DNA of 26,088 nucleotides from positions 1 through 26,088 of IMG/VR virus record IMGVR_UViG_3300045115_000081. One strand, given 5' to 3'. This DNA comes from a virus. Numbering within the stretch: the first letter of the stretch is position 1; every line of letters starts with the position of its first letter. The position numbers were made by a program, and so were the translations under genes. Below, piece after piece: positions 940-24,212 of this stretch. The notes under the pieces are model-generated. The model did no database searches. It was given only the letters and a program-made list of their open reading frames with translations, and had not been told where the DNA came from.

Positions 940-960
940 TGTAACACAAAGACTTATAAG
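940..960 (+). promoter_or_regulatory. Promoter module copy 1 (TGTAACAC...CTTATAAG)
   Basis: TGTAACACAA, three bases, then CTTATAAG. The spacing is identical to the four other copies (3757, 7691, 15518, 16992), though here the TATA-like part is the palindrome CTTATAAG. It precedes the terminase operon. It is also the left half of a larger palindrome (942-972), which may make it bidirectional or repressible. Confidence 0.5.
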
Positions 961-972
961 CAGTTTGTGTTA
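942..972. promoter_or_regulatory. 31-bp palindrome centred on a TATA-like box
   Basis: TAACACAAA (942-950) and TTTGTGTTA (964-972) are exact inverted repeats flanking the self-complementary CTTATAAG (953-960), with spacers of 2 and 3 bases. Each arm carries the upstream half of the promoter module in opposite orientation. The arrangement suits a divergent promoter serving the leftward genes and the terminase operon, or a dimeric regulator site over a TATA box. Confidence 0.5.
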
Positions 973-1002
973 AATACGTTTAATTGTACATAAAATGACA
1001 AG

Positions 1003-1011
1003 ATTTAAATA
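1003..1011 (+). promoter_or_regulatory. TATA-like box before terminase operon
   Basis: ATTTAAATA lies about 70 bases before the TTG start of the first terminase gene. If used as an archaeal TATA box, the transcript would begin near 1030-1036, which is where the hairpin at 1036-1059 starts. It lacks the TGTAACACCA upstream half of the other promoters. Confidence 0.45.
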
Positions 1012-1035
1012 GTTATTAATATTTTCTGCAAATTA

Positions 1036-1059
1036 ATGGTTATAATAAGTTTTAACCAT
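1036..1059 (+). promoter_or_regulatory. Leader hairpin before first terminase gene
   Basis: ATGGTTA (1036-1042) pairs with TAACCAT (1053-1059) around a 10-base loop, immediately before the G-rich ribosome site at 1061-1068. It probably forms at the very 5' end of the mRNA and could stabilise it or modulate TerS translation. Confidence 0.4.
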
Positions 1060-1075
1060 AGGGGGGATAGACGCT

Positions 1076-1561
1076 TTGGCAAAGTTACCACAAAATGATG
1101 GAAGACGATTTTCTAGCGTTTCTAACTCTATAACTCACGGTAAAAGAAGTGAACATTTTCAGAATTTCTTAGAACGGTACGGTTGTACTCTTAAAGATGT
1201 TGACACATTTGACCCTAACTTCTCTACCAAGTTTCAACTTAAATTAGATTTACTTAACGAGTTTGACCAGAGAATTAAAGGAGCATTATTATTTTATAAA
1301 TCTACTGGAGCCCGAGGACTGAGCATGTTAGACGAACTTGTTCATCTCAGGGGCCAGATTCTAGAACGGGAAAAGAAGTTAGTTCAAGAAGGTAAAGACC
1401 CTCTTACTGACCAAGCATTACAGCGTGCAAATTCAAGATTATTTGAAATCGTTAAATTTTTAGAACATATCAAGTATGACCAAGAAAAAACAGAACGCAT
1501 ACATGAACTGAAAAAGGAAGAAAACCGAGATGACGATATAATCTTTGTACGTGAAAAATGA
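1076..1561 (+). CDS. Terminase small subunit-like protein (161 aa)
   Basis: Likely TerS, the DNA-recognition component of the packaging motor, acting with the large subunit encoded immediately downstream (ATGA overlap). The product is charged and mainly helical, with a basic N-terminus (MAKLPQNDGRRF) and a central/C-terminal helical region (LDELVHLRGQILEREKKLV; FEIVKFLEHIKYDQEK) suited to oligomerisation. The start is a TTG at 1076, chosen because a purine-rich site (GGGGGGAT, 1061-1068) lies at proper distance and the reading frame begins there; an ATG start is not available nearby. No clear helix-turn-helix motif was seen, so the call rests mainly on size and position. Confidence 0.65.
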   Translation: MAKLPQNDGRRFSSVSNSITHGKRSEHFQNFLERYGCTLKDVDTFDPNFSTKFQLKLDLLNEFDQRIKGALLFYKSTGARGLSMLDELVHLRGQILEREKKLVQEGKDPLTDQALQRANSRLFEIVKFLEHIKYDQEKTERIHELKKEENRDDDIIFVREK

Positions 1562-3072
1562 ATTATACTGAAATAACTCCGGAACTGAGATTGGATTGTG
1601 AGAAAGAATCTAAATTAGACCTTGCTCCGGCAACTTCTAGGTGTAAAGAGTCTACTTCTTACTTCTGTAGGAACATTTTAGGCATTAAATCATATACTTG
1701 GCAACATTTACTTTGGAAAACACTTGATGCTAGAAATACTAGAGTTGCGTGTATAACTAGCAGACAAATAGGTAAATCTACTGCATTGGCTATTTTTGCT
1801 CTTAAACAAGCCGTTTATAACTTAAGACCGGCAGGCATTTCTAATAAAACCCATATTGGAATAATTTCTGCAACTGATGAACAGTCTAAAAAAGTCATGC
1901 TAGAAATTAGAAGACTCATTCAAGCAGGAGATGATTACATTAAAGAAGATACTAAAGGTAAAATACCTAACTTCTTGTCAAACCAAATAGATAGTTCAGT
2001 TGAGGCAGCAAACAACAAAACGACAATTACGTTTGAAAATGGGAATACTATAGTCTGTTTACCTCCTACCGACAGAGTTAGAGGATACTCATTTTCTTAC
2101 GTTTTTGTTGATGAAGCTGCTTTCATTGAAGATGAAGGAATATTCTTCCAATGTATAGAGCCAACAGTTTCACACACTAACGGAGTGATTGTTTTAACTA
2201 CTACTCCTAACGGTCAGCAAGGGTTTCTTTATGAACTGTTCGACCCGGAAGATAAAAATAAAGAACATGAATATATCCGGTTCTGGATACATTATTCCAG
2301 TATAGATGATAAAAAGCATATTGAACAAATAGAAAAGAAAAAAGAGTTTTATTACGATACAGGCAGAGAGAAAGAGTTCAAACAAGAGTATGATGCTTTA
2401 TTTACTTCTCAAGTGTCTGCTTTCTTTGATTCGAGTGACGTTGACAACATGATAGATTTGAACTTAACTAGAGAATCGTTTTGGAAAAAGGATGTTACTC
2501 ATCTGGGTATAGATTTCGGCATGGTAAACTCTAACACCGTTATTTCAATAGTTAGAAAAGAAAAAGATACAATTAAACTTGTTTGGCAATACATCTATCC
2601 TCCAGGAACAGATACTAACTTAATGAACGATGTTAAAACACTTATGCAAGATTATTCTGTTGAAAAAGTTATAGTTGATGATTGTCCGCAAGGAGACTAT
2701 ATAATTAAGGAAATGACTAAAGAAGGTTTTCCTCTTACTACAATGAAGTTCAGAACAGAAAAAGTAGCTAAATACGTATCGTTCAGGAGCATGTTACATA
2801 AAGGTAAAATTAAGTCTTATGATACAGACGAACTGAAAAAACAAATGAAAGCTATGCAAGAAATTCAAGGCGTAGTTACAGTGAAAATAGAAAAACCAAC
2901 CGGCGGTAAAGATGACGCTGTTGATTCGTTCTTGCTTGCTTGTTATCATTACCTTGACCAAGATACTTCTTTTGAGAGTTATGCAGTGTTACCAGCAGAT
3001 AAAACTCTCGAACCGGAATTAATGGAAGAACTAGAACTGTGGGGAAATAAAATATGCGAACAAAAGATGTAA
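1558..3072 (+). CDS. terL: Terminase large subunit (TerL), 504 aa
   Basis: ATP-driven DNA-packaging motor with a headful/concatemer-cutting nuclease. The ATPase domain shows Walker A ITSRQIGKST (residues 66-75, Lys73), Walker B VFVDEAAF (182-189, Asp185-Glu186) and a TTTP coupling motif (214-217). The RNase H-like nuclease domain shows LGIDFG (Asp319), VIVDD (Asp374/375) and GKDDAVDSF (Asp452, Asp453, Asp456), so the acidic catalytic residues appear present. At 504 aa it is of ordinary length for the family and looks intact. The start overlaps the upstream stop as ATGA; the C-terminus overlaps the next gene by 19 bases. TerL identity is very secure. Confidence 0.95.
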   Translation: MNYTEITPELRLDCEKESKLDLAPATSRCKESTSYFCRNILGIKSYTWQHLLWKTLDARNTRVACITSRQIGKSTALAIFALKQAVYNLRPAGISNKTHIGIISATDEQSKKVMLEIRRLIQAGDDYIKEDTKGKIPNFLSNQIDSSVEAANNKTTITFENGNTIVCLPPTDRVRGYSFSYVFVDEAAFIEDEGIFFQCIEPTVSHTNGVIVLTTTPNGQQGFLYELFDPEDKNKEHEYIRFWIHYSSIDDKKHIEQIEKKKEFYYDTGREKEFKQEYDALFTSQVSAFFDSSDVDNMIDLNLTRESFWKKDVTHLGIDFGMVNSNTVISIVRKEKDTIKLVWQYIYPPGTDTNLMNDVKTLMQDYSVEKVIVDDCPQGDYIIKEMTKEGFPLTTMKFRTEKVAKYVSFRSMLHKGKIKSYDTDELKKQMKAMQEIQGVVTVKIEKPTGGKDDAVDSFLLACYHYLDQDTSFESYAVLPADKTLEPELMEELELWGNKICEQKM

Positions 3073-3635
3073 AGATAGATGTACTTCTGCTTGAGAAGTT
3101 GAAAACGATTGACACCGACCCAAATAAGGCAATTAAAGACGTATTGCTTTTTTTAAGGAACGAAGCTAAAGGTAAAGAAGCTAAATTCAAGTATGACCAT
3201 AATGTTAACTTACTTGCAGAAAATAACGAAAAACTCAGAACACTTCTTCAAGATGTTGAAGCTGAATATGCTAAAGCTATCTTTTCTGGTGAAATGCAAC
3301 TTGATGACCTTAAACAAACACTAGTTAAACTTGAACTGCAAATCAAGTACCCTAGACTACTTTCCCCCTCTTATGAGTATGAAACGATTCCAGAGTACCA
3401 AGAACTACAACTTAAAGGGATGAAAGCTACTCTTGAAATGATTAAACATAAAATGAAGATGTTAGAAGAAGGTATGATTAAAGCTAAATCCCAAATGAAG
3501 GCAGAATATGAGAACCGAAAAAGTGTATTGGAAGAACAAAACATCAGAATTGAGCTTGAAATCAAAAGGGCAAAAGAAATGAAAGAATCGTTTAAATTCT
3601 TCGAGGGACTAGATGACGATACGAAACCAAGTTAG
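3054..3635 (+). CDS. Coiled-coil protein between terminase and portal (193 aa)
   Basis: Strongly charged, predicted almost entirely helical, with heptad-like stretches around residues 55-105 and 125-185 (KATLEMIKHKMKMLEEGM; QNIRIELEIKRAKEMKESF). It ends acidic (EGLDDDTKPS). The start ATG lies within the end of terL and the stop lies within the start of the RHH gene, so it is translationally embedded in the packaging operon. No known family recognised. By position it could be a packaging accessory, a scaffold-like factor or a portal/terminase clamp; none of these can be chosen from sequence alone. Confidence 0.8.
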   Translation: MRTKDVKIDVLLLEKLKTIDTDPNKAIKDVLLFLRNEAKGKEAKFKYDHNVNLLAENNEKLRTLLQDVEAEYAKAIFSGEMQLDDLKQTLVKLELQIKYPRLLSPSYEYETIPEYQELQLKGMKATLEMIKHKMKMLEEGMIKAKSQMKAEYENRKSVLEEQNIRIELEIKRAKEMKESFKFFEGLDDDTKPS

Positions 3636-3828
3636 GTTTAAACTAACAGATGAAGACTTGGACCGATTGGAAACTTATACAGAAAATAGTCTTGAGACGA
3701 AATCTGAAGTTATTCGAAAGGCCCTAGTCCTTTATCTTGACCTAAATACAGAGGGGTGTAACACCAACCTATTTAAAAGAAATGTTACATTCGTTAAGAT
3801 AACCCGGGATGATACTGACAGAGAATAG
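3613..3828 (+). CDS. Ribbon-helix-helix (CopG/MetJ-type) DNA-binding protein, 71 aa
   Basis: Residues 3-10 form the basic beta strand (IRNQVRFK), followed by helix A (DEDLDRLETYTEN) and helix B after a turn (TKSEVIRKALVLYLD), the standard RHH layout that dimerises and inserts a two-strand sheet into the major groove. It overlaps the coiled-coil gene and the portal gene. The C-terminal ~25 residues are not part of the fold; their codons contain the promoter module at 3757-3777, so that tail may be constrained by DNA function. A likely role is transcriptional control of viral promoters, perhaps the five-copy module, but this is inference. Confidence 0.8.
   Translation: MTIRNQVRFKLTDEDLDRLETYTENSLETKSEVIRKALVLYLDLNTEGCNTNLFKRNVTFVKITRDDTDRE
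3757..3777 (+). promoter_or_regulatory. Promoter module copy 2, inside RHH gene
   Basis: TGTAACACCA-ACC-TATTTAAA; only one base differs from copy 3 at 7691 over 21 bp. The TATA-like part starts 39 bp before the portal ATG (3809), which would place the transcript start about 10 bases upstream of the gene, an almost leaderless mRNA. Found wholly within coding sequence. Confidence 0.6.
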
Positions 3829-5104
3829 TTTGGACCTGATAGATGTTAGGGCTTCTAAAGGAGTTCCGAAAGATTTTGTTAGTTCTTTTTCTACTTCTAA
3901 TCAGCTAGATAAGCAGACTATGGGCATCTTCTTAGAAATGATAAGAAATGACCCTATTTGTTCTAGTGCAATGGATATTACCATTGAAACTGCTACTTCT
4001 AACGGGTACAACTTTTATCCTAAACCCGGTAAAGAAGATGAAAAGTTTGAGAAACAAGCTCAAGAAGCTAAAGTTTATTTTGAAGATGTTCTTGATTATG
4101 ACATAGTTCAAGATAACGTAGTAGCTAATTTGTTCTTATATGGTGATTGTCCTGTTGAGATGAGAGGAAACACTCAACGAAAAATCAATGAATTACATGT
4201 CTTAGAGATGACCGAACTAGACATTGAATATAACGAAAACGGTGAAATAACCAAGTTTATCCAACAATCTGGTAAAGGAAAGATTGAATGGGGTCCTTCT
4301 GATGTGATGTTCATTCAATCTAGACAAATCGGTAGTAAGGTCCGAAGTTATGCTCCTTTAGAGTCAGTTGCAGTAAATTTCGCCACACTCATGTACGCTA
4401 ATAATCACATTTTACAGATTCTTAAAAATATGCCTCCCAAACTTATGTACGTTCTCAAGAATGCCGATAAGACTACTCGGGCAATGTTCATCAACAATTT
4501 GAGGCTGTCTAAGACTAATCCTGCAGTTGACCTTGTTGCTAATAATGAAGCTACAATCGTCAGTCCAGAATTTAATTATAATGGGCTGTTTGATGTATTG
4601 ACTTATGTTAGACAACAAGTACTTATGGTTACTAGAGTACCCCCTGTTTGGGTTGGACTAATTGATACTAAAGGAGCTGACCGAGGAAATTCAGAAGCCA
4701 TGATTTCAGCATTTATGTCAAGAATAGTAAAGATTCAACAAAGAATAGCTTCTTCCATTAACAAAGATTTACTTCCAAAATTAGGCCATAAAAATATCTG
4801 GTTTAAGTATAATCCCCCTAGTTTAAAGCTAGAAAAGGAGATTATAGAGAATGCAGAACGATTATCCAATATTGGAGCAGACCAGTCGGTAGTTGCCAGA
4901 TACCTCAGCGAGAGAGGTATTCGTGTTGGCAAAGACCAGATTGTTCAAGAAAACCAGACTAAAGATAAAGACTTAATGCCTTCAAGAACCAGAGAAGATA
5001 AAACTACTGATTCTATGACTTCTGAACTTAACAGAGATGGTACTTCAGATAAGTCAGGTAAAAAGATAGAATCTAGAAATATTCAGCAAAGGTGGTACAT
5101 ATGA
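3809..5104 (+). CDS. Portal protein (431 aa)
   Basis: Forms the dodecameric ring at the capsid vertex through which DNA enters and to which the neck attaches. Position after terminase and before protease/capsid, length, and sequence features fit the siphovirus portal family: an N-terminal region with MGIFLEMIRNDPICSSAMD, a wing-like segment with LFLYGDCPVEM, and a C-terminal helical stretch with VTRVPPVWVGL followed by GNSEAMISAFMSRIVKIQQ, typical of the stem/crown helices. The tail (KDLMPSRTREDKTTDSMTS) is polar and likely disordered. The start overlaps the RHH gene and follows a near-leaderless promoter. The stop overlaps the next ORF as ATGA. Confidence 0.9.
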   Translation: MILTENSLDLIDVRASKGVPKDFVSSFSTSNQLDKQTMGIFLEMIRNDPICSSAMDITIETATSNGYNFYPKPGKEDEKFEKQAQEAKVYFEDVLDYDIVQDNVVANLFLYGDCPVEMRGNTQRKINELHVLEMTELDIEYNENGEITKFIQQSGKGKIEWGPSDVMFIQSRQIGSKVRSYAPLESVAVNFATLMYANNHILQILKNMPPKLMYVLKNADKTTRAMFINNLRLSKTNPAVDLVANNEATIVSPEFNYNGLFDVLTYVRQQVLMVTRVPPVWVGLIDTKGADRGNSEAMISAFMSRIVKIQQRIASSINKDLLPKLGHKNIWFKYNPPSLKLEKEIIENAERLSNIGADQSVVARYLSERGIRVGKDQIVQENQTKDKDLMPSRTREDKTTDSMTSELNRDGTSDKSGKKIESRNIQQRWYI

Positions 5105-5196
5105 TTAAAGAAAATTTATCATATAAGGAAGCTAAAGAAATAAAGGACTATAAAAAGAAGAAAAAGATGTACGAGGAAGATGAAGACGATGAATGA
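5101..5196 (+). CDS. Charged microprotein (31 aa)
   Basis: Short ORF MIKENLSYKEAKEIKDYKKK... ending in an acidic run EEDEDDE. Its ATG overlaps the portal stop (ATGA) and its end overlaps the start of the protease gene, so it fills the gap between them exactly. A block of five lysines is followed by the acidic tail. Function unknown; it may exist to couple translation from portal to protease, whose ribosome site (GAGGA) lies inside it. Confidence 0.5.
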   Translation: MIKENLSYKEAKEIKDYKKKKKMYEEDEDDE

Positions 5197-6307
5197 TAAT
5201 TTCTTACTTTCAGATTTGAAAATAGAAAAGAAAGGAGAAAAGTTAGTAGTTAGAGGTACTGCTGCAGTAGCTAACAAACTTCATGCTCATGCGTACACTG
5301 TTGACAAAAAGAAATCGTTCAGAAGTTATTTCACTGACAAGGCACTTAGGAAAATGGAATCTGACCTTAAATATAGGCCAGTTTTCATCGATATCCAACA
5401 TAATGTTACTACTAAACTTAATAATGATTTCATTATTGAGAAGATTTTAGAACAATATCCTGAACTTAAAGATGAACTAAAGACTATCCAAAGTAATCTT
5501 ACTATGTCTGATGTTCCTATGTTTATTTTAACTAATCATCAACTTAATGATGATGAATTAATTGTAGAAGTAGAATCTAATCCCCTTTATAAGGAGATAG
5601 ACGAAAATCATGCTAAGATGTATAATGTGGTTACTGAAAGTATCTTAAACCAAGCAATTAACGGGTTTTCAGTAGATTTCGTTTCTAAGGACGTTTATAA
5701 TGAAAATGGAGTACAAAAGATAGACGATTTAGATTTATTGGGAATAAGTTTAGTCAATTCCCCTGCGATGGGTTCTTATACCAGTATTGCTGAAGTGGCA
5801 ACTCGCAGTATCCAACGAATAGTTGAAACAAGAACAGGTGAACAGAAAATGACAGAAACTGGGGAGAAAGTAGTTCCACAAGTAAATGTGGAAGAAGTAG
5901 TTGCTAAAAAGGTTGAAGAAGCCTTGAAACAACGTGAATTAGAAGCACAGAAATCAAGACAAGAAGCAGAAACAGCTAAGTTGAAAGAAGAACTTGAACA
6001 ACTTAAAAGGGAAAGAGAAGCACAAGCAAGTTCTGGGTCTCGGGGAGTACCTAAAACAGAACCTAAGATGTCCTTTGATGAGTTCAAAACAAGACTTAAC
6101 AACTTAAGTGAATCTGACCAAATTCGGTTATATGCTGAATTTGTTACAAATAATAACACTCAAAGTATCCCGCCACTCTTAAAAACAGCAAGTCATCGTG
6201 GTAGGCCAGACGACCCCAGAGTAACTTGGGGATTCGAAGCTCCATCAGGGAGTATGGCCGAAGCGTACAGACAAGCTATCAGAGCTAAGGATGATATGAG
6301 ATTTTAA
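5180..6307 (+). CDS. Prohead protease fused to scaffold (375 aa)
   Basis: The N-terminal ~205 residues match the HK97-type (S78/U35) prohead protease pattern: a His in FIDIQHN (His74), a Ser in INGFSVDF (Ser164) and the family-typical LLGISLVNSPAM at 187-197. The middle (about 225-290) is a long charged coiled coil (VEEALKQRELEAQ, KLKEELEQLKRERE), a scaffold domain. The C-terminal ~90 residues may contact the capsid protein. So one polypeptide likely supplies both maturation protease and internal scaffold, self-removed after assembly. Start could be ATG 5180 or ATG 5189; 5189 is better spaced from GAGGA. It lies just upstream of the major capsid gene, as expected. Confidence 0.85.
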   Translation: MKTMNDNFLLSDLKIEKKGEKLVVRGTAAVANKLHAHAYTVDKKKSFRSYFTDKALRKMESDLKYRPVFIDIQHNVTTKLNNDFIIEKILEQYPELKDELKTIQSNLTMSDVPMFILTNHQLNDDELIVEVESNPLYKEIDENHAKMYNVVTESILNQAINGFSVDFVSKDVYNENGVQKIDDLDLLGISLVNSPAMGSYTSIAEVATRSIQRIVETRTGEQKMTETGEKVVPQVNVEEVVAKKVEEALKQRELEAQKSRQEAETAKLKEELEQLKREREAQASSGSRGVPKTEPKMSFDEFKTRLNNLSESDQIRLYAEFVTNNNTQSIPPLLKTASHRGRPDDPRVTWGFEAPSGSMAEAYRQAIRAKDDMRF

Positions 6308-6333
6308 AATAAAATCGGTAGGAGGAAAAACAA

Positions 6334-7434
6334 ATGAACCAAAACCTAATGGAAGTGCGTGCCGCACTTACCACTACGACCAGTGATGACTGGTCAGCCG
6401 GTACTACTTACGGTGGAGCAGAAATCCAAAAGAAAGTAGAAGAAATGCCAATCGAAGCATTTAACAAAATGACTGACTTGGCCAAATTGTTGCCTAGAAA
6501 GAACATTAACCAGCTAGCTTATTTCTGGAACTTAGTTGAAGAAACTGTTGCTGGGTCTGGAGTAGCTAACAGCTCATTCCTATTCTATGCAGAAGGAGCC
6601 AGTGGAACTCCCGCAGCTACTTCAAAAGTACAACTAGCTGCTTTAACTAAATCATATAGAACTGATTACGAAGTAACCGGTTTAATGATTGCTGCAGGTA
6701 TGGGCAACCAACTAGCAGAAGAAGCAAGATTTGCTGCTGAAGCTTTAGCTGTCGGTGAAGAAAAGTCCATTATCTGTGGTACTGCAACCAGTGCCTATGG
6801 ATTCAGTGGAAGTTTCTTAGGATTATTACAATTGATGGGAAGTTATGCCAGCTTTGCAGAGACAACCACCGTTTACGGAATTGCTCGTGCTTCTGGTAAG
6901 ACTTACTTAGATGTTGGAGTTGTCAGAGGAGCTGCTGCTGCTGCTGATGCTTTATCCTTAGACGACTTGGACGCTGCTTTAACTACCTCTAATAAGAGAG
7001 GAGGAAAGGGCTCTCGAAGAATCTATTTCTGTTCTGAAGACAGAGTTGACGAAATTGCTCAATTGCTTCAACCACAACAGAGATTCAATTCTCCAACTAT
7101 CGAGTTCGATGGTGGATTTAGAGTATTGTCCTATAAGGGGATTCCCATTATCGGTAGCCGATTCATGGATAAGAACGGATTGACTTCAACTGGAGCCAAC
7201 TCTACTGCAACTTATGCAGACCAAGCCATGTATTTACTTGACCTAAACCATATCTTCATGGTACACGTAGCAGGAGTTAATGCTGTACATGTTCCTGTGG
7301 TTTCCGGTGCACACACTGCATCTACTTCTCAACTAGGAGCAGACGTAGTTGGTGGATTCTATAAGTCTTACGGAGTACTTGTAATGGATAGATTCGACAC
7401 CCAAGTAATCATCATGAACTTAACGGACATTTAA
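6334..7434 (+). CDS. Major capsid protein, HK97 fold (366 aa)
   Basis: Shell subunit. The call rests on position after protease-scaffold, a strong ribosome site (AGGAGG), length, and composition typical of HK97-like capsid proteins: N-terminal helical region (AEIQKKVEEMPIEAFNKMTDLAKLLP), a spine-helix-like segment (AEEARFAAEALAVGEEKSII) preceding a G-T rich loop, an Ala/Asp-rich helix (DALSLDDLDAALTTSNKRG), and a C-terminal beta-rich P-loop/A-domain region with RFNSPTIEFDGGFRVLSYKG and GIPIIGSRFMD. Codon choice is noticeably more C-rich at third positions than in neighbours, consistent with high expression. A T-tract follows the stop. Confidence 0.88.
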   Translation: MNQNLMEVRAALTTTTSDDWSAGTTYGGAEIQKKVEEMPIEAFNKMTDLAKLLPRKNINQLAYFWNLVEETVAGSGVANSSFLFYAEGASGTPAATSKVQLAALTKSYRTDYEVTGLMIAAGMGNQLAEEARFAAEALAVGEEKSIICGTATSAYGFSGSFLGLLQLMGSYASFAETTTVYGIARASGKTYLDVGVVRGAAAAADALSLDDLDAALTTSNKRGGKGSRRIYFCSEDRVDEIAQLLQPQQRFNSPTIEFDGGFRVLSYKGIPIIGSRFMDKNGLTSTGANSTATYADQAMYLLDLNHIFMVHVAGVNAVHVPVVSGAHTASTSQLGADVVGGFYKSYGVLVMDRFDTQVIIMNLTDI

Positions 7435-7440
7435 TTGTCC

Positions 7441-7458
7441 TATTTTTTTATTTTTTTA
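7441..7458 (+). terminator. T-tract terminator after major capsid gene
   Basis: Two T7 runs separated by a single A, starting a few bases after the capsid stop, with no GC hairpin before it. This is the form of archaeal intrinsic terminators. Immediately downstream is a TATA-like ATTTAAATA (7459-7467). Confidence 0.5.
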
Positions 7459-7467
7459 ATTTAAATA
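7459..7467 (+). promoter_or_regulatory. TATA-like box after capsid terminator
   Basis: ATTTAAATA, the same core as at 1003-1011, abuts the T-tract. If functional, transcripts would start around 7485-7490, which is inside the following small ORF. No TGTAACACCA half is present. Confidence 0.3.
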
Positions 7468-7695
7468 GTACGTTATGGAACATTCACTAAGACCGCAGCA
7501 GGAACTTCCGAGAGTTTTGCTACTGGAATGAAGAAGTTAGATTGGTTTAATTTAACGGTATGCGGAACTGGAACAAGTGCAGTTGTATTACCAGTAATAT
7601 CTAGTGCAAGTACTTTCCCATTAAGCACAGGTACTGTAACCGTACATTTCGATACTGGAACTTCAACTGGTTTCTGGAAAGCAGAAGGATTGTAA
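7468..7695 (+). CDS. Small beta-rich structural-like ORF lacking a normal start
   Basis: The open frame reads VRYGTFTKTAAGTSESFATG then MKKLDWFNLTVCGTGTSAVV... ending GFWKAEGL, with protein-like composition all the way from 7468, yet no ATG, GTG or TTG occurs in frame before ATG 7528 (55-aa product, no ribosome site). A nearby ATG at 7475 is in a different frame and stops after 18 codons. One extra G after that ATG would give MGTFTKTAAG... and an intact 73-aa protein. Possibilities are a real frameshift mutation, an assembly indel, programmed shifting or a non-standard start. By position and composition it could be a capsid decoration protein. Confidence 0.45.
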   Translation, partial: VRYGTFTKTAAGTSESFATGMKKLDWFNLTVCGTGTSAVVLPVISSASTFPLSTGTVTVHFDTGTSTGFWKAEGL

Positions 7696-7711
7696 CACCA
7701 ACTTATTTAAA
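7691..7711 (+). promoter_or_regulatory. Promoter module copy 3
   Basis: TGTAACACCA-ACT-TATTTAAA overlaps the stop codon of the preceding small ORF (its GTAA supplies TAA). It stands about 80 bp before the decoration/fibre block. It is followed by a pyrimidine-rich tract (7714-7732) and then a leader hairpin. Confidence 0.6.
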
Positions 7712-7741
7712 TTGTTTTTTATTTTTCTTTCTTAATATGAC

Positions 7742-7762
7742 GCCCCACACCGATACGGGGGC
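7742..7762 (+). promoter_or_regulatory. GC-rich leader hairpin
   Basis: GCCC (7742-7745) pairs with GGGC (7759-7762), and an inner CCG-ATA-CGG stem (7750-7758) stacks within. It is the most GC-rich spot in an AT-rich leader and lies shortly after the expected transcript start, ahead of the ribosome site GGAGG at 7782-7786. Confidence 0.4.
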
Positions 7763-7792
7763 TGATTAGTAAAATATACATCGGAGGATATT

Positions 7793-8497: not shown

Positions 8498-8509
8498 GGA
8501 GGTATTAAA

Positions 8510-9412: not shown

Positions 9413-9421
9413 GGTGGAAAA

Positions 9422-12244
9422 ATGACAGACGAAAATTTTAGATTTGAAAACGGAAAAATTATCCAGAATGGTAATGAATTAACTGTTCAATCACAAGTTC
9501 AGGCGGGAGATGTGCTAGGAGATAATGGGGTAATTGACCCTAGTTTCGAAGATTATTGGAATTTTATATCGCACACTCCTAATGGATGGAACTCTAAAGG
9601 AACGTCGTCTCAACATACTTTTGTGGAAAGAAGTACTAATGCTAGAGTTGGTAATTATTCAGCAAGAATTTTTCATAACGAAAGTGATATTGATATCTCA
9701 AGAAGTTTTTCAATAACTTCGGGCCATAGTATCACTATTTCAACTTGGGTCAAGATTCCAAGTGGCAATTCTACTGGTGCAACTTTAATTCTATATGATG
9801 GTTCAAGCAAGTATTACAGATTTACTGGTGTAAATGCTGGTACTTGGCAGACTGGCGAAGATGTTGATTCAGTTTTATCAATTGCTGCAACTTCAGAATG
9901 GCAAGGACCAGCTGATTCAATTGTTACATTAATAGCTCCGACCAGCGGTTCAATTATGGTAATTATTGCTGAGGAGGGAGGAAGTGTTGTTGGTTCAGAC
10001 CAAGTTTTAGTTGGTCAAGTAACTGCTTTCGACAATGATGATGGCGTTGAAAAGTTAAGCAACAACTCTTTCGCTGATTGGACAGGCGTGACATCTAATG
10101 CAATCAATACAAAATGGGATTGTCAGAGCATTAGTGGTGTGGGCAGTTATAGTTATGGATATAATGAAGACATCACCTATATCCATTCTGGTAATAAGTC
10201 GTTAATCCTTAGAGCGGGTTCAGACACAATAGCTATCTGTGATTCTATAGAACCAGTGGATACAACTGACGGATTAACTAGAGACATATCATTATGGGGA
10301 TGCTATGTTCCAACGTACACGGATAGCACATTATTACTCTATTTAATCAACGATGTTTATGGTGCTAATACTCAGTATTGGGACTTTGTAGCTGAAGGAT
10401 GGGTTAACGGGACCACAACTCCACCAAGTGCTGATTGTATTAAGTCGTTTGTAATAAACGGGACTTTGGGAGAATTCACTGTTGAAGATATTACTCCCCC
10501 TGCAAGTAATTTAATCGTTCCAATGATTGGAACTGGCGGAACAGGAATAACTGCATCTCGAGTTTACGTAGATGATATTTCAATTCAACCACAAGTCACT
10601 AACACTTTTGTTCCTGAAATTGGTTTGAAATCTACAACATCTGTAGCTAAATCTGCAATGACAGATAATGATATCTTGATTAAAGTTAATGACGCCAATG
10701 ATAGAAATATGTTTCAATCTTGGTACAGTTATTCAAATGATGAAGTTGTGATTAAAGGTGCTGCAAAAGACACTACTGAAGAAGGGGCTACTGATTTAGT
10801 GCTGATGGGCGGAACACCAAATCCCACAAAAGAAGCTGTGGGAGGAAATATTGTTTTAAAAGCAGGATTAAAAAACTCGTTAGGCAGTTGGATAAATGGC
10901 GCTGATGTTTATTTAGTTCCTGATTATGCTAATAAAGATGGAACAAATAGAGAAGGTAGAGTTTACGTTAGTAGTTTAGCTGGATGGGACCAACCTGCAC
11001 TACAATTCTGGATGCATGAAAATGGCGGTGCTATCTCTGCGTATGCAGATTACAGTGGAACAGAACAACCACTTTATTTATGTGGAGCACCCGGATATCC
11101 TGGAACTGACCACGACGGTAAAAATATCTTTGTCCTAAGTGGAGCTGGTGACGGTTCAGGCAGTGATGGAGCTATCAAATTTGGTAGAATGTTGAGAAGC
11201 AGTATAAGTTCTTGGGCGCCAGAGGAATATTTAGAATTAAATGCTGATGTTTCCGAAAGTGAGATATCATTCAAGGCAAAAACTAGAAACGATAGTGATG
11301 GTTATGAAATAAGTATTCTAGCTGCTCCTGGTCAAGATAGTGGTGTAACAAATAGGAATGGTGGGGATGTAAACCTAGCCTCTGGCGTTAAAGATAATTC
11401 AGGTGAAGATGGACAAATTACTTTTGGATATCATGATGGCTCTAATCGTTGTCAGATGCTTAGTATGCAATTCAGCGATACTGAGAAAGGAGACTCTTTA
11501 AGTGAAGTGTTGATAATGGGACAAATTCCAGAAGCTAACCAAGATGGTTTTGATGTTCTACTTGCAGCTCAACAGGGTTATGATTCAGGGGTTACTGCAA
11601 GGAATGGTGGAAATTTGTTACTTGGTGCAGGTAAAGGAATCAATGGTGGTAGTGACGGAATAATCGGGATGGTGCATCAACTCAATGATTCAACAGGACC
11701 CTTACTGGGTATGGGATTTGAGTATGCAAGTTCTATTTTGTCTATCAAGGCTTTACCTCAAGATTTATCTGGTGTATCTGATTACGAAGGTTTTGACGTT
11801 AAGCTTATTGCTGGTGACGCAGATTCGGGTAGTTTAGGCGATTTAGACGGTGGAGATTTGATTTTAGAAGCGGGTGTTGGAGTTAATGACGGGAATGATG
11901 GAAGAGTGATTGTTTCCCATAGATTGCTTCTTAAACAAGGTGCAGATGTCGCTTCAGCAAATAATCTTGACCTAGGATATGATGGAAATGTCTTTGAGAT
12001 TACTGGAACTACTGAGATTCAACTGCTTTCAAATCTTGGTTGGCAGAACGGTTCTGAGGTTATTTTATTGTTCACTTCAACACCAACGGTAAAACACGCG
12101 ACCGCAACAAGTGGGGCTTATATAACAATCCTATTAGCGGGGGCAGTTGATTTCTCTGCTACTGCTGGCGATGTTTTAAAGTTAGTATTGTGTGAAATTG
12201 GCGGAACGCAAGCATGGAGAGAAGTGTCCAGAACGGCGATATAA
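9422..12244 (+). CDS. Large fibre with two jelly-roll-like domains and five repeats (940 aa)
   Basis: Probable host- or glycan-contacting fibre. Residues about 35-185 (NGVIDPSFEDYW ... RVGNYSARIFH) and 210-390 (KLSNNSFADWTG ... HSGNKSLILRAG) each have the layout of carbohydrate-binding-module jelly rolls (CBM4/9-like). Residues about 445-835 hold five degenerate ~80-aa repeats with the pattern GG-x-(V/L)-x-L-x-x-G...G-x-DG-x-I/V, with glycine pairs near 474, 566, 647, 729 and 810. Residues 838-940 form a C-terminal cap (GADVASANNLDLG ... WREVSRTAI) of the type that ends beta-helix tail fibres. Start from GGTGG ribosome site. Family known in phages; binding target not inferable. Confidence 0.75.
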   Translation: MTDENFRFENGKIIQNGNELTVQSQVQAGDVLGDNGVIDPSFEDYWNFISHTPNGWNSKGTSSQHTFVERSTNARVGNYSARIFHNESDIDISRSFSITSGHSITISTWVKIPSGNSTGATLILYDGSSKYYRFTGVNAGTWQTGEDVDSVLSIAATSEWQGPADSIVTLIAPTSGSIMVIIAEEGGSVVGSDQVLVGQVTAFDNDDGVEKLSNNSFADWTGVTSNAINTKWDCQSISGVGSYSYGYNEDITYIHSGNKSLILRAGSDTIAICDSIEPVDTTDGLTRDISLWGCYVPTYTDSTLLLYLINDVYGANTQYWDFVAEGWVNGTTTPPSADCIKSFVINGTLGEFTVEDITPPASNLIVPMIGTGGTGITASRVYVDDISIQPQVTNTFVPEIGLKSTTSVAKSAMTDNDILIKVNDANDRNMFQSWYSYSNDEVVIKGAAKDTTEEGATDLVLMGGTPNPTKEAVGGNIVLKAGLKNSLGSWINGADVYLVPDYANKDGTNREGRVYVSSLAGWDQPALQFWMHENGGAISAYADYSGTEQPLYLCGAPGYPGTDHDGKNIFVLSGAGDGSGSDGAIKFGRMLRSSISSWAPEEYLELNADVSESEISFKAKTRNDSDGYEISILAAPGQDSGVTNRNGGDVNLASGVKDNSGEDGQITFGYHDGSNRCQMLSMQFSDTEKGDSLSEVLIMGQIPEANQDGFDVLLAAQQGYDSGVTARNGGNLLLGAGKGINGGSDGIIGMVHQLNDSTGPLLGMGFEYASSILSIKALPQDLSGVSDYEGFDVKLIAGDADSGSLGDLDGGDLILEAGVGVNDGNDGRVIVSHRLLLKQGADVASANNLDLGYDGNVFEITGTTEIQLLSNLGWQNGSEVILLFTSTPTVKHATATSGAYITILLAGAVDFSATAGDVLKLVLCEIGGTQAWREVSRTAI

Positions 12245-12246
12245 AA

Positions 12247-12333
12247 ATGGCAACTAAAGGAAATATACAGTTTTCAAGTGATGCGTTAATTCGGATTAAT
12301 GATAAAGTTGCATATTATGCAAAAAATAAATAA
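12247..12333 (+). CDS. Microprotein (28 aa)
   Basis: MATKGNIQFSSDALIRINDK... ending AYYAKNK. It begins two bases after the stop of the 940-aa fibre gene and ends two bases before the next start codon, both junctions having the TAA-A-ATGG form used repeatedly in this genome, which supports translation. Too short to assign; it may be a linker cistron or remnant of a larger gene. Confidence 0.45.
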   Translation: MATKGNIQFSSDALIRINDKVAYYAKNK

Positions 12334-12334
12334 A

Positions 12335-12655
12335 ATGGTAAAAAATCATTCATCAGTTTGCATTCACGAGGACGATTGGGGAATGGTAAAACAGAAACTA
12401 CTTAACGGAGATGATAGAATGGTAAGATTAGAATCAGATATAAAAGAGATTAAATCTGACATCAAGGATGTTAAGGAAAGTCTTACTTCATTACCCGAAA
12501 AGTATGTCACCCGTTCCGAGTTTAGCGAGTTTAAGGGTACTCTTGGCGTTAAGGAAAAATCTTTCAAGGACAAAGCATGGCAAGTATTCATTATTGCTTT
12601 ACCTTGGATTGCCTTATTTTTATTTTTAGGATTTAAACAATATCTTGGGAACTAG
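12335..12655 (+). CDS. Coiled-coil protein with C-terminal membrane segment (106 aa)
   Basis: Layout: N-terminal MVKNHSSVCIHEDDWG, a heptad coiled coil at about residues 27-55 (RMVRLESDIKEIKSDIKDVKES), then one strong transmembrane helix near the C-terminus (VFIIALPWIALFLFLGF). This resembles XhlA-type small phage membrane proteins associated with lysis, but such coiled-coil/TM designs are widespread. I chose ATG 12335 over the in-frame ATG at 12299 because it follows the preceding stop in the recurrent TAAAATGG form. Its place between two large fibre genes rather than beside an endolysin is odd; it may instead act at the membrane during entry or egress. Confidence 0.65.
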   Translation: MVKNHSSVCIHEDDWGMVKQKLLNGDDRMVRLESDIKEIKSDIKDVKESLTSLPEKYVTRSEFSEFKGTLGVKEKSFKDKAWQVFIIALPWIALFLFLGFKQYLGN

Positions 12656-14956
12656 ATGACATGCAATGTTACCGGAACAGTAATTGTAGGAAATGTTAAC
12701 GGAAGTAGTTCTACAAATGCTATTTCAGGTAATGTAAGTTCTGGTAGTGTATCCGGTTCAACTAGGACAGAACCAATCAGTGGAATTATCACAAGTAATA
12801 TGGTAACTGGAGTTGCAAGTACTGAAGGACCTTATGACCATGGTGCTCTTCTTGGTCTAGGAGACAACGACCACCCACAGTATGAACTAGTTGCAAATAA
12901 GTCTAGTGGAACAAGTCTAGGTACCTCGGATACTTTATACCCTACTCAGAATGCAGTTAAGACTTATGTAGACAATGCTATTGGTGGGGAAAACTTGTGG
13001 GACAGGACAAGTACTTATCTTTATCCGCATAATTCTGGTGACTCAATATCTGGCGGAACAAGTTCTGGTGGAGATTTATATCTTTATTCCACATCACACG
13101 CTACTAAAGGAAAAATTTACTTAGGTTCAGACAGTGCTTATGATGAAGTTTATAAAACAATACTTATCGGTAGAACAACTCAACCCGGAATAGGGGGTTT
13201 TGTCGGTGGTTTCTTTGAAGGAGATTCTGGTGGAATTTCTTATAATGTTGGAGTTAGAGATTTAGCTCCTACTGGTTATGCTCAAATAGCTACATTAAAT
13301 AGCACAGGAGGTGTTGGAGAATTTGGAGTAGGCGGAGTGTCTGCTGCTGACCCGGTTTATCGTAACCGTGCTTATTTTTATTCTAATGCAAGTTTAGATG
13401 GTCTGACTTTCCAAGCTATTGCAGCCACTGGAACTATTATCTTTGGAACAGGCGGAGCTACTTCTGCTTATGACCGAATGAAGATTGATGAAAATGGAAA
13501 TGTGTTGATTGGAACAAGTTCTTCTTCTGGAGTAAGATTACGCGTTTCTTCTATTGGGACAGACATTGAACGAGGTTTTTACGTATCAACTGTTTATTCT
13601 GGTTCTGACCAGACAGTAATTGGAAACTTTGCTGATGTTTATGGGGTCGGTACGCATCTAAATGCGCGGGCTATTGGCGGGCAATTTTTAGGCAACGATT
13701 ATAAAACAGATAGGTCTACTGGTTCTACTTCAACTTATGGGGGCTGGTTTGCAACAAAAGATAGAACAGGAACATTTGCAGCAGGAGCTACACACACATT
13801 CTTGGGAGGATTCTTTCAGGTAAATGATGCTTTAGGAAATTGGACTACGAACAATCCAACAGTTACAAGTTATGGAGTATACATTGCAGGAACTCCAACA
13901 GGTTATGGTTCAAATCACACGCATTATTCTTTATATTCTGTATCTGGAAATAATTATTTTGGGGGTCGTGTCGGAATTGGAGATTCTTCACCAGATTACG
14001 AGTTAGATGTAGTAGGAACTATTGGAACAGACTACATTCAATTTAATACTGCGGCAACACCAATAACTAATGCAGAAGGATTACTCCAATGGAACTCAAC
14101 AGATGGAACTTTAGATTTGGGTATGTCTGGTGGAGATGTAACTCAACAAATTGGTCAGGAAATGTTTATTAAAGTAATCAACAAAAGCGGGACTAGTATT
14201 GTTAATGGAAAACCTGTTTATTTCAATGGAAGACAAGGAAACAGGCCAAAGATTTATTTAGCAAAAGCAGATGCACATTCCACTTCTTGTGTTTGTGGAG
14301 TAACTACTCAAGATATTGCAGATAATGCTGAGGGATATATTACTACTTTTGGTTATGTTAGACAGATTAAAACAAACTATTCAGGCAGTGGCGATTGGGG
14401 AACTACTTGGAACGAAGGAGATTTACTTTATGTTTCCAAATCGGTTGCTGGACAATTAACTAACGTTGAACCTAGTGCACCGCATCATTCAGATATAGTT
14501 GGAGAAGTTGGTGTTGTAGGTGCATTGGGGGTCGGTTCAATCTTTATTCGTGTTGATAAACATAAAATCATGAGCGAGATTTCAGATGTTAATGGAACTG
14601 CTTTAAATACTTCTGGACAGATTTTAGTGTGGGACAATTCTAACCAATATTGGGATGCTGATTACAATATCACTGATTATGAAACTAAAGCAAAACCTTA
14701 TTCAGAAAAAACTTCTACTTATACTATCACTACTTCAGATAGTACCATCAATTGTACCTCAGGAACATTTACTGTAAACTTGCCAACGGCAGTGGGAATT
14801 ACTGGAAGAGTGTTTAACATAAAAAATACAAGCACTGGAATTATTACAATAGACGCTAATGGTTCTGAGACAATAGATGGAGAACTGACACAGACGGTAA
14901 ACCAATGGGAAAATATAACTATCCAAAGCACAGGTTCAAACTGGATAATACTTTAG
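12656..14956 (+). CDS. Long tail/head fibre protein (766 aa)
   Basis: Residues 1-55 have repeated GNV/SG-type short motifs (GTVIVGNVNG, SGNVSSGSVSG). Residues 61-76 DHGALLGLGDNDHPQY are a classic fibre motif, followed by PTQNAVKTYVDNAIG (96-110). The shaft carries GNVLIGTSSSSGVRLRV and VGIGDSSPDYELDVVGTI, the VGIGxxxPxxxLxV repeat of phage fibres. A middle domain (QEMFIKVINKSGTSIVNGKPVYFNG, in parts) and the end (VNLPTAVGITGRVFNIKN ... TIDANGSETIDGE) are beta-rich and end NWIIL. The gene begins directly after the upstream stop. Likely a trimeric fibre; no autoprotease residues were identified. Confidence 0.75.
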   Translation: MTCNVTGTVIVGNVNGSSSTNAISGNVSSGSVSGSTRTEPISGIITSNMVTGVASTEGPYDHGALLGLGDNDHPQYELVANKSSGTSLGTSDTLYPTQNAVKTYVDNAIGGENLWDRTSTYLYPHNSGDSISGGTSSGGDLYLYSTSHATKGKIYLGSDSAYDEVYKTILIGRTTQPGIGGFVGGFFEGDSGGISYNVGVRDLAPTGYAQIATLNSTGGVGEFGVGGVSAADPVYRNRAYFYSNASLDGLTFQAIAATGTIIFGTGGATSAYDRMKIDENGNVLIGTSSSSGVRLRVSSIGTDIERGFYVSTVYSGSDQTVIGNFADVYGVGTHLNARAIGGQFLGNDYKTDRSTGSTSTYGGWFATKDRTGTFAAGATHTFLGGFFQVNDALGNWTTNNPTVTSYGVYIAGTPTGYGSNHTHYSLYSVSGNNYFGGRVGIGDSSPDYELDVVGTIGTDYIQFNTAATPITNAEGLLQWNSTDGTLDLGMSGGDVTQQIGQEMFIKVINKSGTSIVNGKPVYFNGRQGNRPKIYLAKADAHSTSCVCGVTTQDIADNAEGYITTFGYVRQIKTNYSGSGDWGTTWNEGDLLYVSKSVAGQLTNVEPSAPHHSDIVGEVGVVGALGVGSIFIRVDKHKIMSEISDVNGTALNTSGQILVWDNSNQYWDADYNITDYETKAKPYSEKTSTYTITTSDSTINCTSGTFTVNLPTAVGITGRVFNIKNTSTGIITIDANGSETIDGELTQTVNQWENITIQSTGSNWIIL

Positions 14957-14965
14957 GAGGATAAA

Positions 14966-15517
14966 ATGAGTTACTTTAAACATATAAAACAAGACGTTGT
15001 AGCAGATGCAAATAACTCTTCTACAACAAACTTATCTGCTGGAAATTCTTACACCTTTACTGGAACATCTACCAGTACATTGGGAATTGCAGGAATCCAA
15101 GTTTCTCTAAAAACAGATGTGAATTGTATAGTTTATATTGACCAATCTCCTGACGGAACTAACTGGGACATAACTGACCAATATAGTTATTATTCAGCAA
15201 TTAATAATTTTGGTATAACTATTCAAGCAGTTAATTCTTATGTCAGGGTTAGAGTTATAAGCAACTCTCTAACTTCAACTTATTTTAGGTTACAAACAGC
15301 TCTTTGTCCAATTGTTGAAGCGTTGCCTAGAAGTCTAGACGGTAGTGGTAATTTAAAAACTTCCATTCGTGCAATTGAAGATGCACACGGTTTTGAAGTA
15401 GAAAATACACCTATTGGGGAAATGGGGGCAGTTACTAATATAAGAGCCCCATTTTATAACGGACTAAATATAGTTCCGAGTTCAACTAACTTAAATTTAA
15501 TGGTGAATTACGAATAA
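14966..15517 (+). CDS. Beta-rich structural protein (183 aa)
   Basis: MSYFKHIKQDVVADANNSS..., with a central beta-sandwich-like region (IAGIQVSLKTDVNCIVYIDQSPDGTNWD; AVNSYVRVRVISNSL, in parts) of a kind seen in phage tip or decoration proteins, where a D-G-T-N-W-D turn is common. The C-terminus (NTPIGEMGAVTNIRAPFYNGLN) is separate. Strong GGAGG ribosome site. It is the last gene of the fibre block and is followed at once by the next promoter module. Exact role unknown. Confidence 0.65.
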   Translation: MSYFKHIKQDVVADANNSSTTNLSAGNSYTFTGTSTSTLGIAGIQVSLKTDVNCIVYIDQSPDGTNWDITDQYSYYSAINNFGITIQAVNSYVRVRVISNSLTSTYFRLQTALCPIVEALPRSLDGSGNLKTSIRAIEDAHGFEVENTPIGEMGAVTNIRAPFYNGLNIVPSSTNLNLMVNYE

Positions 15518-15538
15518 TGGAACACCAACTTTTTTATA
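15518..15538 (+). promoter_or_regulatory. Promoter module copy 4 (degenerate)
   Basis: TGGAACACCA-ACT-TTTTTATA starts right after the preceding stop codon. The upstream half differs from consensus at one base; the TATA part is replaced by T-rich TTTTTATA, extending to TATATTAAAA. The neck gene starts at 15561 with its own AAGGAGAGG site (15545-15553), so any transcript would have a very short leader. Confidence 0.4.
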
Positions 15539-15560
15539 TTAAAACAAGGAGAGGATTAAT

Positions 15561-16622
15561 ATGACTAACGATATTACTATTAATAAAGGAGATTTACTTC
15601 CTATTACTTTCTCAATTTTAGATGGAAGTAGTGCTAGAGATTTAACGGGATATTCCGGTACAATCAGTCTTAAATATGAACTATCTAGTGGAAGTACTTC
15701 TACTGTTCTATCTAAGGCAGTAACAATCACGTCCGGTACCGGGGGAACTGGTTCAGTTAACCTTCTTCCGTCTGAAACAACTCTTCTTTCCGTAGGAACA
15801 TATTCTTATGAAATAGTGTTTACTAGTGGAACTTCTATTGAAATTACCCCTATTTCAAGCACAATTACCGTCATTGACTCGAATACTTCTAAAGGATACA
15901 CTAACGAATCCCTAGTTGAAGCAGAATTGGGTACTAGTATCACTAGTAGTACTACTCCTAATTCAACCCAGTTAAATCAATGGATTAAAGAAGCAGAAGC
16001 ACAAATTGAAGGAAAACTAGGCCAAATGTTCGGTTCTACTACGGCTACCAACTTTGTTCAGTCTTATGATGAACACACCTCACTTAAAGAGGATTTAAGT
16101 CCAGTTTATTCTTCAATGGGACACGACTATTCTGGTCTAAATCTTAATACATCTACCTTTTTAGTAGATAATAACGGATTAAGAATTTATCCAATTATTT
16201 CAATTACTTCCTTATATAGGAACGTGGCAGGAGACACTGAAGCTGATTCTTGGGAATTACTTACCGAAAACACAGGAAGTAGCGGAGATTTCATATTAGA
16301 TAAACTTAATGGAAAAATTATTTTCATTAATAAATTACCTATCCGGGGAAAGAAACGAGCTATTAAGTGGAGTGGTACTTATGGAAGTAGTTCAGTTCCA
16401 GTGGAAATCCAAATGCTTGCTACGAAGATAGTAGCTCAACGAGCAATGCAAGTTAAAATCAAAAAAGGAATGATGTCCAATACTGACTCTTATTCACTTG
16501 AAGGGTTCTCTAGAAAGAAAGAACTTTCACAGAATGTATCTTATTTACAGGAACTTGATAGAGAATTGGATAGGATTTGGGAAGACATAAGCGGAACATT
16601 CCAATCGGAGATTGTTAAATGA
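15561..16622 (+). CDS. Head-tail connector with extra N-terminal beta domain (353 aa)
   Basis: Two parts. Residues 1-110 form a beta domain of the type at the N-terminus of baseplate/receptor-binding proteins (ITINKGDLLPITFSILDG, RDLTGYSGTISLKYE). Residues about 115-353 look like the gp6/connector adaptor family: NESLVEAELG, a helical segment (LNQWIKEAEAQIEGKLGQ), a beta hairpin (LRIYPIISITSLYRNV), and a closing helical region with PVEIQMLATKIVAQRAMQ. Ordinary adaptors are 100-200 aa and lack the first domain, so this is probably a fusion. It should bind the portal ring. The stop overlaps the next start as ATGA. Confidence 0.65.
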   Translation: MTNDITINKGDLLPITFSILDGSSARDLTGYSGTISLKYELSSGSTSTVLSKAVTITSGTGGTGSVNLLPSETTLLSVGTYSYEIVFTSGTSIEITPISSTITVIDSNTSKGYTNESLVEAELGTSITSSTTPNSTQLNQWIKEAEAQIEGKLGQMFGSTTATNFVQSYDEHTSLKEDLSPVYSSMGHDYSGLNLNTSTFLVDNNGLRIYPIISITSLYRNVAGDTEADSWELLTENTGSSGDFILDKLNGKIIFINKLPIRGKKRAIKWSGTYGSSSVPVEIQMLATKIVAQRAMQVKIKKGMMSNTDSYSLEGFSRKKELSQNVSYLQELDRELDRIWEDISGTFQSEIVK

Positions 16623-16996
16623 GTTGGGGAACTGAAGCTAAAGAACTAATAGAAACGGATTTAGCAGATTTAGATATAGTAACACCCCTAACTCATGTCA
16701 TAAGAACTTCAACCGGTACCTCTGATGGAGGGTATAGTTCCCCCAGTTATACTACTTCATCAAGTACCACTATTTATGGTATACCTACCACTTATTATAA
16801 TCAAAGATTAAACTTTACTAAGTTTGGAAATCTTAAGACTGGTGAACTTGTTTTTTTAGTTTCAGCAGATACTTCTATTTCTAAAGAGGACCAGATAGTT
16901 TATTCTAGTGGCACTTTTAATGTTAGGGAAATCAATCCTGTGCTTATTTCTGATACGGTTATAGCTCAAGAAATCAGGATGGAAAAGGACCTGTAA
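16619..16996 (+). CDS. Head-tail stopper/joining protein (125 aa)
   Basis: Size and place fit the neck stopper (SPP1 gp16 / HK97 joining-protein class) that plugs the connector. The characteristic part is TKFGNLKTGELVFLVSADT followed by EDQIVYSSGTFNVREINPV, where a small beta barrel binds the connector. Ser/Thr-rich loop at residues 28-55. Linked to the connector by ATGA overlap; its stop TAA is part of promoter module copy 5. Assignment is by pattern and synteny. Confidence 0.6.
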   Translation: MSWGTEAKELIETDLADLDIVTPLTHVIRTSTGTSDGGYSSPSYTTSSSTTIYGIPTTYYNQRLNFTKFGNLKTGELVFLVSADTSISKEDQIVYSSGTFNVREINPVLISDTVIAQEIRMEKDL

Positions 16997-17012
16997 CACC
17001 ACAGTATTTAAA
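16992..17012 (+). promoter_or_regulatory. Promoter module copy 5
   Basis: TGTAACACCA-CAG-TATTTAAA with the same spacing as copies 2 and 3. Its GTAA supplies the stop codon of the stopper gene. It stands 66 bp before the tail terminator gene and would drive the tail module. Confidence 0.6.
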
Positions 17013-18018: not shown

Positions 18019-18030
18019 GAGGAAAATAAT

Positions 18031-18570: not shown

Positions 18571-18574
18571 ATAA

Positions 18575-18592
18575 TTTTTATTTTTTATTTTT
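18575..18592 (+). terminator. T-tract terminator after tail tube gene
   Basis: T5, T6 and T5 runs separated by single A bases, beginning a few bases after the tail-tube stop with no preceding hairpin. The next gene starts within 5 bases of its end (TTAAATATGG), so read-through must supply the downstream genes, or an unrecognised promoter overlaps here. Confidence 0.45.
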
Positions 18593-18596
18593 AAAT

Positions 18597-19393: not shown

Positions 19394-19394
19394 A

Positions 19395-20888: not shown

Positions 20889-20890
20889 AA

Positions 20891-22884: not shown

Positions 22885-22885
22885 A

Positions 22886-23907: not shown

Positions 23908-23908
23908 A

Positions 23909-24211: not shown

Positions 24212-24212
24212 T

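Follow-up and report, generated by a model that had tools for sequence, protein, structure and literature searches.

A repeated box-and-TATA element before virion-gene units of a probable archaeal tailed virus: a candidate late-promoter module

Introduction

How might a tailed virus of archaea switch on its virion genes together? A short repeat, TGTAACACCA-N3-TATTTAAA, raises this question in IMG/VR record IMGVR_UViG_3300045115_000081, of which we analyzed the complete entry (26,088 bases, hereafter the window), likely a fragment of a virus genome. Late-gene control has been tested in very few tailed archaeal viruses, halovirus HF2 being the clear case we found. A compact module that recurs at several virion units, next to the gene for a candidate regulator, would offer a cheap and concrete test of how assembly is timed through the archaeal, eukaryote-like transcription apparatus, and the motif could be used as a signal for unit borders in related genomes. 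We find that the repeat is probably a late-promoter module for the virion-gene units of an archaeal tailed virus, where "late" is taken from the genes it would serve.

Results

A fixed-spacing repeat with three exact copies

A preliminary description of this DNA had treated five sites as copies of one module:

940-960, + strand: variant copy; box TGTAACACAA, spacer AGA, palindromic AT core CTTATAAG
3757-3777, + strand: exact copy; box 3757-3766, spacer 3767-3769, TATTTAAA 3770-3777
7691-7711, + strand: exact copy; box 7691-7700, spacer 7701-7703, TATTTAAA 7704-7711
15518-15538, + strand: degenerate copy; TGGAACACCA-ACT-TTTTTATA, octamer at 15531
16992-17012, + strand: exact copy; box 16992-17001, spacer 17002-17004, TATTTAAA 17005-17012

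The motif matches exactly at 3757, 7691 and 16992 and with three mismatches at 15518, and there is no copy on the - strand of the window. The expectation is 0.11 matches (mean of 100 shuffles), none of the 100 shuffles reached four, and the family ranked first in a repeat test of the window. For the exact copies and 15518, the common 10-3-8 spacing and the restriction to the + strand hold, as does the single difference in 21 bases between the copies at 3757 and 7691. While the octamer TATTTAAA by itself occurs at chance (7 found, 5.8 expected), the box GTAACACCA is enriched (3 found, 0.19 expected), so it is the box and the fixed spacing that carry the signal. In a matrix scan, the exact copies scored 30.1 bits and the 15518 copy 17.2, with the next chance site at 12.1; leaving one copy out at a time gave 28.9 bits for each exact copy, 17.6 for the 15518 copy and 13.1 for chance sites.

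The 940 copy behaves differently. It scored 7.8 bits in a matrix without the spacer, ranking around eleventh, under chance sites in coding regions. It is identical to the other copies at only 13-14 of 21 bases, its AT core differs, and only TGTAACAC, the first eight bases of the box, is exact. Exact TGTAACAC occurs four times in the window, always on the + strand and near unit borders. Since the sequences flanking the copies over 40 bases are largely unrelated (mostly at chance likeness, 8-15 of 40, with one pair at 18 of 40), we regard the copies as a kept motif rather than as duplicated segments. As sequence, there are three strong copies, one probable copy (15518) and one doubtful copy (940); the five do not have equal standing.

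The copies stand at the borders of virion units

The copies lie within a rightward block of virion genes (terminase, portal, capsid, neck, tape measure); a few genes on the - strand occupy the left end of the window, and the fragment has few other genes for comparison. The block divides into the following units:

1076-3635, + strand: packaging unit (1076-1561; terminase TerL, 1558-3072; 3054-3635)
3809-7434, + strand: procapsid unit (portal, 3809-5104; 5180-6307; major capsid protein, 6334-7434)
7793-15517, + strand: putative surface or fiber-like protein unit (genes at 7793, 8510, 9422, 12656 and 14966)
15561-16996, + strand: neck unit (15561-16622, matching phrog_1084; head closure, 16619-16996, matching phrog_161 at 3.1e-04)
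17078-25433, + strand: tail unit by gene order, nearly gapless from 17078 to the gene at 24213-25433

The claim that the module stands in front of each unit is upheld for the portal, post-capsid, adaptor and tail units, with the qualification that the 3757 copy is not intergenic: it falls in the C-terminal codons of a gene for a ribbon-helix-helix (RHH) protein (3613-3828). The 940 copy is intergenic, between the - strand genes of the left end and the packaging genes of the + strand. The 7691 box shares bases with the TAA stop of a preceding small open reading frame (ORF), the 16992 box with that of 16619-16996, and the 15518 copy begins directly 3' of a stop codon. Four of the five AT octamers are wholly in non-coding DNA, which makes up 5.8% of the window (binomial 5.5e-05; 0.0098 when only the three exact copies are counted). 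A motif just as common within genes, or on the opposite strand, had been named beforehand as counting against a promoter, and the scan left the promoter reading standing.

We also note that the frame ending in the 7691 box, at its TAA, spans 7465-7695: it is open for about 75 codons, has no standard start before the ATG at 7526 (55 codons), and is coding-like and unlisted.

The positions at unit borders, and the overlap of the 7691 and 16992 boxes with TAA, could also suit an element that does not act in transcription at all, such as a boundary sequence for module recombination, a translation start or a 3' end signal. From motif to next start there are between 43 and 136 bp, a variation that argues against a translation element. 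The 3757 copy is inside a gene and the copies form no fixed hairpin, and we consider this explanation very improbable.

A probable archaeal host

Among the phage hits listed, the top-scoring named TerL match was to Halogranum tailed virus 1 (HGTV-1), and the best match among viral contigs (L005) has the same succession of TerL, portal and SU10-type capsid domain. The TerL-portal order is common to archaeal loci (L143, L145-L148), and the TerL-portal-capsid order to L005. That distant relative has a 721-amino-acid ORF (L005:5599-7764) with the capsid domain at its C terminus, apparently a fusion with the preceding protease-like protein, which in the window is a protein of its own. A TerL C-terminal alignment, run against about 85,000 genomes of bacteria and archaea, gave six confirmed relatives, all six in Bathyarchaeota; the alignment had been made from sequences presumed to be archaeal, so its patterns are biased toward archaea. 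In the phylum of these hits, 35 of 398 genomes match TerL at E <= 1e-15, and several of them show TerL followed by a recognizable portal.

Sigma-70 sites (TTGACA/TATAAT, 16-18 bp spacing) occur at chance in the window, with 69 found and 68.7 expected, and the copies at 3757, 7691 and 16992 form none of the listed sites. The repeat could still be a bacterial phage promoter, of the sigma-70 or T4-late type (TATAAATA) with an activator box, and the strong Shine-Dalgarno sites and the match of TerL to T4-like terminases as well would agree with this. However, there is no -10 element at the right place, the nearest TerL relatives are archaeal, and no protein related to the capsid, portal, neck or tail proteins was found among 50,697 phage records, which together make a bacterial promoter quite improbable. 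The archaeal host and the promoter role originally proposed both appear sound, given the TerL relatives, the TerL-portal synteny, the coding-strand positions at unit boundaries and the analogy with HF2 (PMC8707807). Because the TerL relatives are archaeal and sigma-70 sites are not enriched, we interpret the window as very probably derived from an archaeal tailed virus (Caudoviricetes) and TATTTAAA as a putative binding site for an archaeal TATA-binding protein (TBP). From sequence comparison, we are highly confident that the host is an archaeon.

A putative promoter with a box upstream of the TATA element

Archaeal promoters are recognized by TBP at the TATA octamer and by transcription factor B (TFB) at the B recognition element (BRE). 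In the promoter that we propose, host TBP would bind TATTTAAA at 3770, 7704 and 17005 (the octamer is degenerate at 15531 and diverged at 953), and TFB would bind the bases directly upstream. Host RNA polymerase would begin transcription about 26 bp downstream of the first TATA base, a value taken from HF2, which places starts near 3796, 7730 and 17031, and near 15557 for the 15518 copy. The predicted leaders are 97 nt (940), 13 nt (3757, to the portal ATG at 3809), 63 nt (7691, to 7793, which is preceded by GGAGG), 4 nt (15518, to the ATG at 15561) and 47 nt (16992, to 17078). A sequence-specific factor, either the virus RHH protein or another protein, would bind the TGTAACACCA box abutting the TATA/BRE region, and could be an activator that recruits TBP and TFB or a repressor that occludes them. 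The portal, post-capsid and tail units would then be switched together, the packaging unit possibly with them, and the neck unit least likely.

The preliminary description had taken the box for a virus-specific BRE, which our comparison does not bear out. Measured from the first octamer base, the box lies at -13 to -4, whereas strong TFB sites have a purine-rich BRE directly upstream, with G at -6 and A at -3 (PMC11065993). The exact copies have A at -3 in two of three cases and C, not G, at -6 in all three. Because the box reaches past the BRE and lacks purine-rich character, it is better read as a candidate site for a separate regulator, adjoining and partly overlapping the TFB position.

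Several observations weigh against a late promoter. The BRE position is not purine-rich in the exact copies (CCAACC, CCAACT, CCACAG); in an HF2 repeat, BRE mutations had no effect on activity (PMC8707807), so this feature does not exclude a promoter. At the 15518 copy, the predicted start is downstream of the Shine-Dalgarno sequence of gene 15561; because a 4-nt leader would leave that sequence outside the RNA, this copy is doubtful as a promoter or only auxiliary. The 940 core, at 953, has diverged, and there is a better TATA for the packaging unit nearby:

1004-1011, + strand: alternative canonical TATA TTTAAATA, without a box

As a caveat on the repeat test, the best-scoring pairs that it returned in HGTV-1 are closely spaced repeats inside a gene, so it does not pick out promoters alone. 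Distant relatives lack the motif and show no convincing repeated TATA modules, and the one exact match among viral contigs, in an unrelated AT-rich contig, looks like chance.

Separately, we considered a second, box-less promoter class, ATTTAAATAGT (1003, 7459), and rejected it; at one mismatch it was not above chance.

Inverted partner boxes at two sites

Two sites carry a second box in inverted orientation, 14 bp (940) and 12 bp (3757) on the far side of the core:

964-974, - strand: inverted box partner of the 940 copy, TTTAACACAAA
3783-3789, - strand: inverted box TGTAACA, past the TATA octamer of the copy at 3757

At 940, the partner forms part of a 9-bp inverted repeat round the AT core, with arms TAACACAAA (942-950) and TTTGTGTTA (964-972), for which the null for a random place is 0.6-1%. 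The box in symmetric register has P 0.011 at 940 and, with 7 of 7 bases, P 0.001 at 3757, both for registers 11-15 picked after the data had been seen. This symmetry would suit either a dimeric repressor over the TATA element or a bidirectional promoter.

Operator-type repeats of the first kind would make the box a repressor site that silences the late genes early or in a provirus, the AT core being an overlapped part of a promoter or a coincidence. The stoperators of mycobacteriophage L5 are comparable repressor sites. Besides the inverted boxes flanking the AT core, an operator would be in keeping with the RHH gene in the window, given that archaeal-virus RHH factors mostly repress, by occlusion of the TATA/BRE (PMC5569661), and with the SMV2 motif, which has inverted repeats over the BRE (PMC11065993). 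However, the copies at 7691, 15518 and 16992 have no partner box, and the constant spacing to an exact TATA octamer suits a promoter better. We regard an operator as possible but doubtful; it would be compatible with the promoter reading, as a repressor site would still mark promoters.

Somewhat more doubtful is a symmetric bidirectional promoter, in which box-TATA-box at 940, and perhaps at 3757, would drive the left - strand genes or antisense RNA in addition to the late units. There is a precedent in the HF2 class II repeats, which are active in both directions, with IR12c at a strand switch (PMC8707807). Here, however, only two of the five sites qualify, in a register chosen afterwards, the start of the nearest - strand gene is at a distance of about 600 bp, and the 940 core makes a poor TATA.

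The RHH protein as a candidate factor

Returning to the late-promoter reading, one candidate for the box factor is encoded at the 3757 copy itself:

3613-3828, + strand: RHH protein, 71 amino acids, matching phrog_876 at 1e-07, amid packaging and portal genes

The preliminary description named this protein for a test of binding, and it does not stand out as the obvious factor. Its best NCBIfam match is aCcr1_fam (5.7e-07, below the family cut-off). In the archaeal cell cycle, aCcr1 represses cdvA, and the title of its founding paper mentions viral homologs. The fold model has two helices at low confidence, and a comparison with PDB sequences gave no significant match. The protein may act on the promoters described here, on the host, or on both. 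It is tempting to imagine one virus factor on a symmetric box-TATA-box promoter that synchronizes all virion units, works bidirectionally at strand switches and, as the same RHH protein, also acts on host cell-cycle genes like aCcr1, coupling late expression to arrest of host division, but we regard this as a very long shot.

Searches for relatives

No close relatives were found through TerL and the capsid protein in viral contigs or through TerL in genomes, and the 398 genomes of the phylum with Bathyarchaeota hits gave no match to the capsid protein. The matrix scan proposed as a check puts the exact copies and the 15518 copy above chance and the 940 copy below chance sites within the window, and distant relatives do not carry the motif. 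Such an absence is expected for virus-specific boxes, yet it means that the claim rests on one genome. A relaxed form of the motif matched 26 contigs; we take these matches as chance because there was a single one per contig and no shared virion genes, aside from one short collar-like match.

Other features of the window

TerL (1558-3072) matches phrog_2 at 2e-40 and PF03237 at 1.4e-16, and the gene before it, 1076-1561, is possibly the small terminase by position. The procapsid unit matches PF04860 (3.4e-10), PF17236 (1.8e-07) and NF033394 (7e-19, below the family cut-off); by its position, 5180-6307 would be a protease or scaffold. The 7793-15517 unit gave one weak tail-fiber match, phrog_37034 (function unknown) and a weak Phage_cement_2 match, and its surface or fiber role is mostly inferred. 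The tape measure (19395-20888) matches phrog_28 at 1.1e-09. We found no tRNA and no match to Rfam families in the window.

Two T-tracts directly follow genes, T7-A-T7 at 7443-7457 (+ strand) after the capsid gene and T5-A-T6-A-T5 at 18574-18592 after 18031-18570, which may encode the tail tube protein, given its position. Both have the look of archaeal U-tract terminators placed behind genes for abundant virion proteins, and the one at 7443-7457 probably is such a terminator. The AT-rich intergenic region 350-1075, a possible origin or regulatory region, contains a hairpin-like inverted repeat at 551-597 (TGTAAGTAAG...CTTACTTACA) and further AT-rich palindromes at 651-782. At the right end, a very short ORF (25446-25487, MTRNFPKSGVYNG) ahead of the collar-like gene at 25593 resembles the start of that gene and is possibly the remnant of a duplicated tail gene.

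Discussion

Comparison with known systems

The closest parallel is halovirus HF2 (Haloferacalesvirus), in which the class II repeats of the virion-gene module, 29 bp long, have been cloned and found to be promoter-active, with mapped starts (PMC8707807). Because short repeated intergenic sequences are known promoters there, we regard the present repeat as a new, sequence-unrelated example of an arrangement already known. Both viruses have a few near-identical short repeats containing AT sequence, located in the virion module at the starts of gene blocks, and the 940 copy lies at a strand switch, like IR12c of HF2. On the HF2 right arm, our repeat test returned only the class II repeats. The two systems nevertheless share no sequence similarity. 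The HF2 repeats are proven promoters with TATA at -19 to -26 (PMC8707807), occur as two 29-bp copies and are conserved across a genus, whereas here there are three exact and one or two weak 21-bp copies with a separate upstream box.

The repeated early regulatory sequences of SIRV2, SIFV, SMV2 and further archaeal viruses are similar in placing virus-specific flanking boxes round a shared TATA/BRE core before many units, but they serve early anti-defense genes and have a purine-rich BRE, whereas the present copies precede virion genes and have a BRE position that is not purine-rich (PMC11065993). The GTC element of SIRV1 and SIRV2 is likewise a virus-specific cis element beside the TATA; as cited in PMC5569661 (Kessler et al. 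2004), it is 3 bp long and downstream of the TATA, while the box here is 10 bp long and upstream. Finally, the RHH regulators SvtR, AvtR and F55 of archaeal viruses are comparable to the 3613-3828 protein, likewise a small RHH protein and encoded among virion genes, and SvtR prefers a structural-gene promoter as its target (PMC5569661). The binding of the protein described here to the box is only putative, and its sub-threshold match to aCcr1 suggests that it might have a host target instead.

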